From Nitrososphaeria archaeon (GTDB lineage: Archaea; Thermoproteota; Nitrososphaeria; Nitrososphaerales; JANXEG01), in the NCBI GenBank assembly GCA_029775915.1, contig JARVKA010000001.1, positions 348,594 to 412,593 on the forward strand: DNA of 64,000 bases. Reading direction: 5' to 3'. The notes beneath the pieces were generated by a model, which searched no databases, was not told the DNA's origin, and saw only the letters and a list, made by a program, of their open reading frames with translations. Below, in pieces: positions 5,782 to 8,003 of the stretch. Made by a program: the position numbers and the translations under genes. Each line of letters starts with the position of its first letter. Positions within the stretch are counted from its first letter, which is position 1.

Positions 5782-8003
5782 TTACTCTTTATCAATAAAT
5801 TCTTCTGCCTTTGGAGGTTCTGCACTCAATCCTTTTCTCTTTCTAATTTCTGCAATAATCGATGGCATTAATGATGTTGGTAAGGGAGACCATGCTTTAA
5901 AATATGTATTCCACAAAGCTTTGCCAGCAGTTGCTCCTCTCATAACTTCACTTAAATCAAAGGTTTCTGAAGCTGGAATCTCACCTTGAATAATAGCCAA
6001 CATGCCTTTTTGCTCTACATTTAACAATTTTCCTCTTTTTGATGAGATTACACTAGCTACTGCACCAATTAACTCAGATGGGCATTTTACCTCAATCCCT
6101 AATACGGGTTCTAATAAAATAGGTTCAGCAGAAAGTAACGCACCCAATAAAGCTCTCCTTGTTGCAGGCACCAATTGAGCATAAGTTCTATGAGCTGGGT
6201 CCTCATGTGGAATGAAGTGATGCAATATTACTTTAATCCCTCTACAATACTCATAAGCTAATGGGCCGTTAATCATAATATCTATAAAGCCAGCTCTAAT
6301 TGAATCTAATGACTCTTGAAGGAATTGAACACCTTTTGTAGCGTCAACCAATATATTCCCTCGTTCATCTATAGCTACTACATTACGTGCTTCTTCTGCA
6401 TCCCAACCATGCTCTCTTAAAATCTTTGCTATCGCTTTTCTATCCATAGCCTCATGAATTTGACCAGTTCTGATTAACTCAACAATATCCTCTCCCAAGG
6501 GTTCTACACGTATATAAATTTTATTATGCTTATTTGGAGACTTTGCCATTACAGGTCCAGCCTTGCTTTTAATAGTTTCACGATAGTTAATTAATGGTTT
6601 AGAGGTAATTATCTCTAAGCCTTGTTGATTGAGTAAAGTGGTAACGATCTCTAAGTGAAGAACACCCATACCCGACATTAATGTTTCACCAGTTTCCTCA
6701 TTAATTTTAATTACCAAATTTGGATCTTCAATACTCATTCTTCTCAATGCTTCAACAAGTTTGGGTAAATCTCGAGGATTTTTTGGCTCTATAGCTTCAG
6801 TAACTACAGGCTCAGAGACATATTTAATCGACTCAAAAGGTACAATATCTCTTATAGATGAAATAGTTTCACCAGCTCTAGCATGCTCAAGGCCGAGAAG
6901 TGCTGGGATATTACCCGCAGTTAACATTCCGACTATCTCTCGATGTGGACCCATAAACATAGTAACAGATTGTATTCTTTCCTCTCTTTTCGCACCAATT
7001 AAATGAACTATATCACCATCCCTAACCGTGCCTGAGAAGAGCCTACCAGTTGCTACAACACCAGCTTGAGGATCTACAACAACATTTGTAACCATCATCA
7101 CTATCGGCTTATTATCATCACAATCCAATAAAGCCTTACCTATTTCAGAATTTAAATCGCCCTTCCAAATTTTTGGTATACGATACTTTTGAGCAATGTG
7201 GGGAGGTGGTAAGTGTTTAATCACCATACTTAAAACTGCTTCATGTAAAGGAGCTTTTTCAACTAGCTCTGCAACCTTTCCTTTTGAATATGCATCGTAA
7301 ATATCACCAAAGCGAATACCAATCTTTTGTGCCATTTCAAAGTTAAATCCCCATTTATCCTTTGCGGAACCGAATGCTACACTATTTCCTTGTATACTAA
7401 CTAGCCATTTATCACGATATTCTGGCTCAGCATAAACTTTAATCAAACGGTTAAAATCATTAATAATATTCGCTAACCAAGTTTGCATTTTATCGGGTGT
7501 AAGTCTCAATTCTTTTACCAATCGATCGATTTTATTAATGAATAATACTGGCCTGACTCTCTCTTCTAAAGCTTGTCGAGTAACGGTTTCAGTTTGAGTC
7601 ATTACACCTTCAACTGCATCAACCACTACTACCGCACCATCAATAGCTCTTAAGCTTCTCGTAACCTTACCAGTAAAGTCAATATGCCCCGGAGTATCAA
7701 TCATATTCATTACGTAAGGCTTACCATCATATTCATAATATAGTGTAACGTTAGCTGCTTTAATCGTCATTTGCCTTTGTTGCTCTAACTCCATAAAATC
7801 TAAAGCTAAAGCTTGACCAGCTACTGAAGGGCTAAGCATACCACATGCTGCTAAGAGACTATCGCTCATCGTAGTTTATACGGCTGATCAGAAAATTCTG
7901 ATCAGTTTCCGTGATCTACGTGAGCGATAATCCCAAAGTTCCTTATTTGTTCCTTTACACCGATTATCTTCAATACCTCAGCAGTAGTTTTAAACCTTGG
8001 CAT
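5782..8003 (-). CDS. fusA: Elongation factor 2, interrupted by a 29-nt intron
   Basis: This GTPase drives ribosome translocation. The unbroken frame (5782-7869) starts at MSDSLLAACGM and lacks the G1 motif. That motif lies upstream in another frame, with start ATG 8001-8003 (MPRFKTTAEVLK) running to AHVDHG. Joining 8003-7907 to 7877-5782 removes 29 nt and gives AHVDHGKTTMSDS, a normal archaeal EF-2 of 730 residues. G3 DTPGHID and G4 NKID follow. Domain IV retains the presumed diphthamide His as AHRTYAQ, where GPAQ or GGGQ follows HR in most EF-2 proteins. Read without splicing, the product stops after 33 residues. A GGTGAT ribosome-binding site lies about 8 nt upstream of the ATG. Confidence 0.93.
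7878..7906 (-). other. Candidate bulge-helix-bulge intron in EF-2
   Basis: On the transcript the insertion is bounded by AA^A on the 5' side and AU^A on the 3' side. ACGG before it pairs with CCGU near its end (4-bp central helix). The intron interior forms a 9-10-bp hairpin (CUGAUCAGA with UCUGAUCAG). The flanking exons pair through CGUAG/CUACG and UAUCGCUCA/UGAGCGAUA. Cutting between bases 2 and 3 of each bulge, the known archaeal splicing-endonuclease rule, restores the P-loop lysine codon and the frame. The intron is phase 1 in codon 33. The inner bulge is canonical, and the outer side is a looser internal loop. Confidence 0.88.

Follow-up and report, generated by a model that had tools for sequence, protein, structure and literature searches.

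The EF-2 gene on the minus strand of the 64,000-nucleotide stretch of DNA analysed here (the window) is interrupted inside the codon for its P-loop lysine, and the interrupting nucleotides (positions 7906-7878) almost certainly represent a BHB intron, the type found in tRNAs, in an archaeal pre-mRNA, a reading in which the splicing itself is deduced from the sequence and the predicted fold. A BHB intron in this gene had been proposed in the initial annotation, and all the computational tests run speak in its favour: the single gene copy, the canonical cuts, the related genomes, the covariation, the flank codons, the enzymes and the intron-rich tRNAs. The comparative data, that is 55 genomes, seven positions and covariation, represent the decisive evidence. 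The gene is organized as follows.

7907-8003, minus strand: EF-2 exon 1, 97 nt, comprising codons 1-32 and the first base of Lys codon 33, with start ATG at 8003-8001; MPRFKTTAEVLKIIGVKEQIRNFGIIAHVDHG; conserved in relatives
7878-7906, minus strand: putative BHB intron, 29 nt, inside the P-loop Lys codon (A/AA); its excision restores HVDHGKTTMSDS
5782-7877, minus strand: EF-2 exon 2 including the stop codon, 2096 nt

Once joined, the two exons measure 97 + 2096 = 2193 nt and encode 730 aa plus a stop, with a complete P-loop HVDHGKTT. In a profile search, the joined protein scores 889.5 bits against NCBIfam TIGR00490 (aEF-2; cut-off 738) over residues 5-719 of 730, in base-for-base agreement with the initial view of a broken frame that yields a 730-residue EF-2 upon removal of 7878-7906. 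The spliced string spanning the junction is CACGGAAAAACTACGATG, with NFGIIAHVDHGK and TTMSDS as the protein on either side, and cuts between the second and third bulge bases restore the frame exactly, as had been claimed. In the unspliced mRNA a stop codon lies two codons past the glycine of HVDHG, and this mRNA, to judge from its sequence, cannot yield EF-2.

ORF finders start the unjoined frame at the ATG at 7869, which is in frame and is the start that an annotation pipeline would choose, so that the cell might be thought to make a 695-aa EF-2 preceded by an untranslated leader. GTP binding of translational GTPases depends on the P-loop lysine. The 695-aa product, which begins at position 35 of the aEF-2 profile, has no P-loop and would thus be without this residue; moreover, the protein sequence of exon 1 is conserved throughout the order, and intact relatives have it fused in frame to the rest of the gene, which makes a leader highly improbable. 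A decaying pseudogene, or an assembly or sequencing error, would also break the frame, and most of the genomes compared for EF-2 do look like multi-contig metagenome assemblies. Against this, the gene is the sole EF-2 copy of a source genome (handle G000) of 1.47 Mb in 10 contigs that is 99% complete: an intact second gene, named beforehand as one of the findings that would refute an intron, was sought across the whole of it and is absent, the next match (35% over 63 aa) being a different 602-aa frame. In addition, both exons are conserved, and EF-2 introns recur in many independent assemblies, including the single-contig genome G002, with different interiors at the same site; G002 belongs to family f2, and its intron measures 37 nt and interrupts the Asn codon. 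Decay or error is therefore extremely improbable.

Around the insert, which we continue to read as an intron, the transcript is predicted to adopt a structure composed of the following elements.

7909-7912, minus strand: 5' strand of the central helix, ACGG, exonic (codons His-Gly), partner of 7880-7883
7880-7883, minus strand: 3' strand of the central helix, CCGU, intronic, partner of 7909-7912
7906-7908, minus strand: 5' bulge, AAA, with its predicted cut site at 7907/7906
7877-7879, minus strand: 3' bulge, AUA, with its predicted cut site at 7878/7877
7884-7905, minus strand: inner hairpin CUGAUCAGA-AUUU-UCUGAUCAG, 9 bp
7916-7930, minus strand: 5' arm of the outer helix, UUAUCGCUCACGUAG, in exon 1, MFE partner of the 3' arm; z = -7.3 versus synonymous recodings
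7859-7874, minus strand: 3' arm of the outer helix, CUACG-A-UGAGCGAUAG, in exon 2

The local fold of the insert and its flanks amounts to -36.4 kcal/mol, compared with -13.0 +/- 2.9 for shuffles (z = -8.0). Specifically, the 4-bp central helix spans exon and intron, the two 3-nt bulges lie on opposite strands and give the mature product when cut canonically, and the 9-bp inner helix sits directly behind the central one, as BHB introns require. The ACGG/CCGU pairing, the AAA and AUA bulges and the near-perfect interior hairpin first described were all found; what had to be refined is the outer helix, which is long but starts past a 3x5 internal loop that sets it off from the 3' bulge, exon-1 AUC facing AUAAA. 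In other words, the predicted structure is a relaxed BHB on the exon side. Searched as a repeated element, the hairpin has a single occurrence in the genome, so that an origin as a copy of such an element is ruled out; an intein is likewise ruled out, the insert being 29 nt long and frame-breaking.

The source genome encodes two PF01974 proteins. The first (L088, 187 aa) keeps the catalytic Tyr-His-Lys pattern, its closest solved structure being the tRNA-splicing endonuclease 2cv8, and the second (L089, 179 aa), without the catalytic His and Lys, is likely the structural subunit of the splicing endonuclease. From this combination we infer an (alpha-beta)2 enzyme, a type known to accept relaxed BHBs (PMC6379350). 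An RtcB gene is present as well (L150), so that genes for both the splicing endonuclease and an RtcB-type ligase, as expected of a BHB host, are found. Introns interrupt a dozen or more of the tRNAs of this genome (L151-L177), and several of them apparently lie outside the anticodon loop, e.g., in the D arm. A scan for frame-joining BHBs over 464 kb (the window plus 400 kb sampled elsewhere, about a third of the genome) ranks the EF-2 structure first; no other convincing mRNA BHB intron emerged from these 464 kb, the candidates numbering 43 versus 31-43 in wrong-geometry controls. An interruption of cbf5 was sought in the source genome and in its relatives, where this gene is open in full.

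For the comparison with relatives, EF-2 5' ends were read in about 120 genomes picked from searches of the order (the archaeal order containing the Nitrososphaera and Nitrosopumilus groups), the class and the phylum. Introns were called as excisions restoring the motif I-R-N-x-G-x-x-A-H-V-D-H-G-K-T-T, and six genomes for which the initial motif had been too strict, their EF-2 being intact on inspection (G117, G209, G041, G052, G056 and G059), were left out of the intron count. Inserts of 16-63 nt (median 31) are present in 55 genomes belonging to at least 19 families of one phylum. The alignment of related EF-2 genes, indicated at the outset as a check, thus brought to light 54 further intron-bearing genomes together with intact sister genes. 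All inserts are confined to one stretch of approximately 18 codons, in which seven positions are used.

Asn codon of QIRN, phase 1: families f2, f3, f11, f12, f17, f18, f29, f34, f38 and f55
Asn codon of QIRN, phase 2: families f4 and f5
5' of the Val codon of HVDHG: families f30 and f49
Asp codon: a single genome of family f10
Lys codon, phase 1: families f1, f14 and f10
Lys codon, phase 2: families f10 and f40
Ser codon just before DSLL: family f53

The position of the source intron is also used in G001 and, with a diverged interior, in G014, G027, G067 and G077. Phase differences of one base track synonymous changes in the preceding codon (GGA versus GGG, CGA versus AGG), and the BHB helix seems, from these sequences, to slide with that codon. 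The central helix is 4/4 at canonical cuts in 50 of the 55 inserts, and the 5' bulge is usually AAA; in the f14 relatives, which share the source position, the helix is reduced to 2-3 bp. Compared with its own shuffles, each of the 55 introns reaches p values of about 0.0005-0.03, with two exceptions, in a calculation that ignores kinship. Relatives differ in both the sequence and the length of the inner hairpin, and its pairing is maintained. The smallest intron, of 16 nt, is found in G046 (L026), where the inner hairpin has 3 bp closed by a loop of 3 nt.

Compensatory changes couple exon and intron at several of these sites. At the Asn site UUCG/CGAA alternates with UCCG/CGGA (intron A/G matching Ile ATT/ATC); at the Lys site ACGG/CCGU alternates with AUGG/CCAU (His CAC/CAT with intron G/A, in both phases) and CGGG/CCCG with UGGG/CCCA; at the Val site GCCC/GGGU alternates with GCGC/GCGU (Ala GCC/GCG with intron G/C). 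As read from the aligned genes, these exon/intron changes keep the central helix through synonymous codon positions. The outer helix is entirely a matter of exons, whose flanks pair over about 14-17 bp in G000 and G001. Random synonymous recoding of the source flank codons costs about 20 kcal/mol (z = -7.3), and the synonymous codons of the source EF-2 appear to be selected for this helix. Within the class of the source genome most introns give flank z values of about -1 to -5, whereas no comparable selection on codons is seen in the exon flanks of the other classes of the phylum, most of which give z of about +1; 43 intact EF-2 genes given the same intron average -0.6. This difference between classes weighs against the intron reading, as do the short f14 helix and the relaxed exon side of the source BHB. 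One intact gene, a strong exception (G032, L069), has synonymous codons that still form the outer helix of a Lys-site intron (z = -6.2), and is likely the footprint of a recently lost intron of this type.

Reading through the insert is possible in none of the 55 genomes. Thirty-seven inserts shift the frame, and the 18 with a length multiple of three all carry an in-frame stop, mostly within 3 codons of the 5' cut; the product of the chance probabilities of these stops is 2e-7, a figure inflated by shared ancestry. A hairpin with an early stop, behind which the frame immediately resumes, is also what programmed translational bypassing or frameshifting would look like, the ribosome hopping the hairpin on uncut RNA as in phage T4 gene 60. 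In 15 of 16 Lys-site genes, however, the triplet standing in place of the P-loop lysine is not a Lys codon, being TAA in the source genome, TAG in f14 and GAG or AGA elsewhere. Since the lysine exists only after joining, and matched take-off and landing codons are absent, bypassing of the gene 60 type is rejected; moreover, hopping leaves the 4-bp helix and the 3-nt bulges at seven positions unexplained. Any such recoding must be considered very unlikely.

The introns have been gained and lost repeatedly. A quick tree of 92 EF-2 proteins, built on exon 2 only and weak in its deep branches, requires at least 25 changes of intron state, and none of 200 state shuffles reached as few. In particular, G071 (with intron) and G058 (without) are about 2% apart, and G305, with no intron, is placed among the Val-site carriers. 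A recent turnover of the EF-2 introns is clear from these sequences. The same P-loop hosts inteins, inserted between Lys and Thr (HGK/T) in families f6, f19 and f20 and in one Bathyarchaeota record; they are in frame and end in ...FVANGIIVHN/TT (L008, L126, L182-L186, L049). Genomes of other classes (G270, G312, G322, G332, G347, G377) carry two divergent EF-2 paralogues. In addition, EF-2 is a known casposon integration target in Thaumarchaeota (PMC6563490).

These observations can be assembled into a highly probable mechanism. In the folded EF-2 transcript, the exon codons on both sides would pair into a long outer helix and the intron into an inner hairpin, and the 4-bp helix flanked by its two 3-nt bulges would thereby be exposed. 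Both bulges would be cut between the second and third base by the splicing endonuclease, a heterotetramer, and RtcB would ligate the exons, giving a spliced mRNA from which the 730-aa EF-2, its P-loop lysine intact, could be translated; the excised 29-mer would probably be circularised or degraded. Phylum-wide, the codons of the P-loop region are a recurrent target of BHB introns, with many gains and losses. A more speculative proposal, which we hold to be rather doubtful, is that these codons are a phylum-wide hotspot in which introns are gained, shifted and lost, and are kept since splicing gates EF-2 synthesis and couples elongation capacity to tRNA supply via the shared endonuclease and ligase, synonymous codons being selected for the splice signal and introns for being untranslatable. 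If this were true, EF-2 output would depend on the enzymes that mature tRNAs.

Whatever the reason for their retention, closely related EF-2 pairs with and without intron allow direct tests of how introns in archaeal mRNAs are gained, lost and slide. EF-2 would be the second gene of this kind, an essential one whose most conserved motif is the site of interruption in dozens of genomes, and a case in which the synonymous sites of an essential gene appear to be selected for RNA splicing. By implication, gene models throughout the phylum would carry a P-loop-less or broken version of EF-2, a standard phylogenetic marker.

One of the closest known counterparts, the intron of the cbf5 pre-mRNA of Crenarchaeota, is reportedly the subject of papers by Watanabe in 2002 and Yoshinari in 2006. 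The view of cbf5 as the classic archaeal protein-coding intron, already expressed in the initial annotation, agrees with the literature: BHB introns of cbf5 are known in Crenarchaeota, with unconfirmed predictions mentioned for other genes (Yokobori 2009, PMC2738675), and a 2020 study gives cbf5 as the only such intron reported in archaeal mRNA, apart from the 5'-UTR substrate described there (PMC7714728). No prior report of an EF-2 intron was found in the open-access literature searched. Hence, the intron class is known, while EF-2 as a host, its repeated interruption and an outer helix encoded by exons appear to be unreported in that literature.

Like the cbf5 intron, the EF-2 element is a short BHB intron in an archaeal coding gene, with predicted removal by the tRNA-splicing endonuclease, a link to hetero-oligomeric endonucleases and lineage-specific gain and loss; it differs in the gene, in the lineages (Nitrososphaeria and other classes), in its seven positions and in the long exon-encoded outer helix. 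With the BHB introns of archaeal tRNA and rRNA it shares the 4-bp helix, the two 3-nt bulges and, as predicted, the same cuts and enzymes, but it lies in an mRNA, must keep the reading frame and carries no ORF. In Haloferax, the HVO_1309 BHB is an mRNA target of the archaeal enzyme (PMC7714728) and is located in a 5' UTR, whereas the EF-2 intron is within the coding sequence. Finally, the EF-2 inteins occupy the same conserved stretch but are protein-splicing elements of hundreds of residues, removed after translation.
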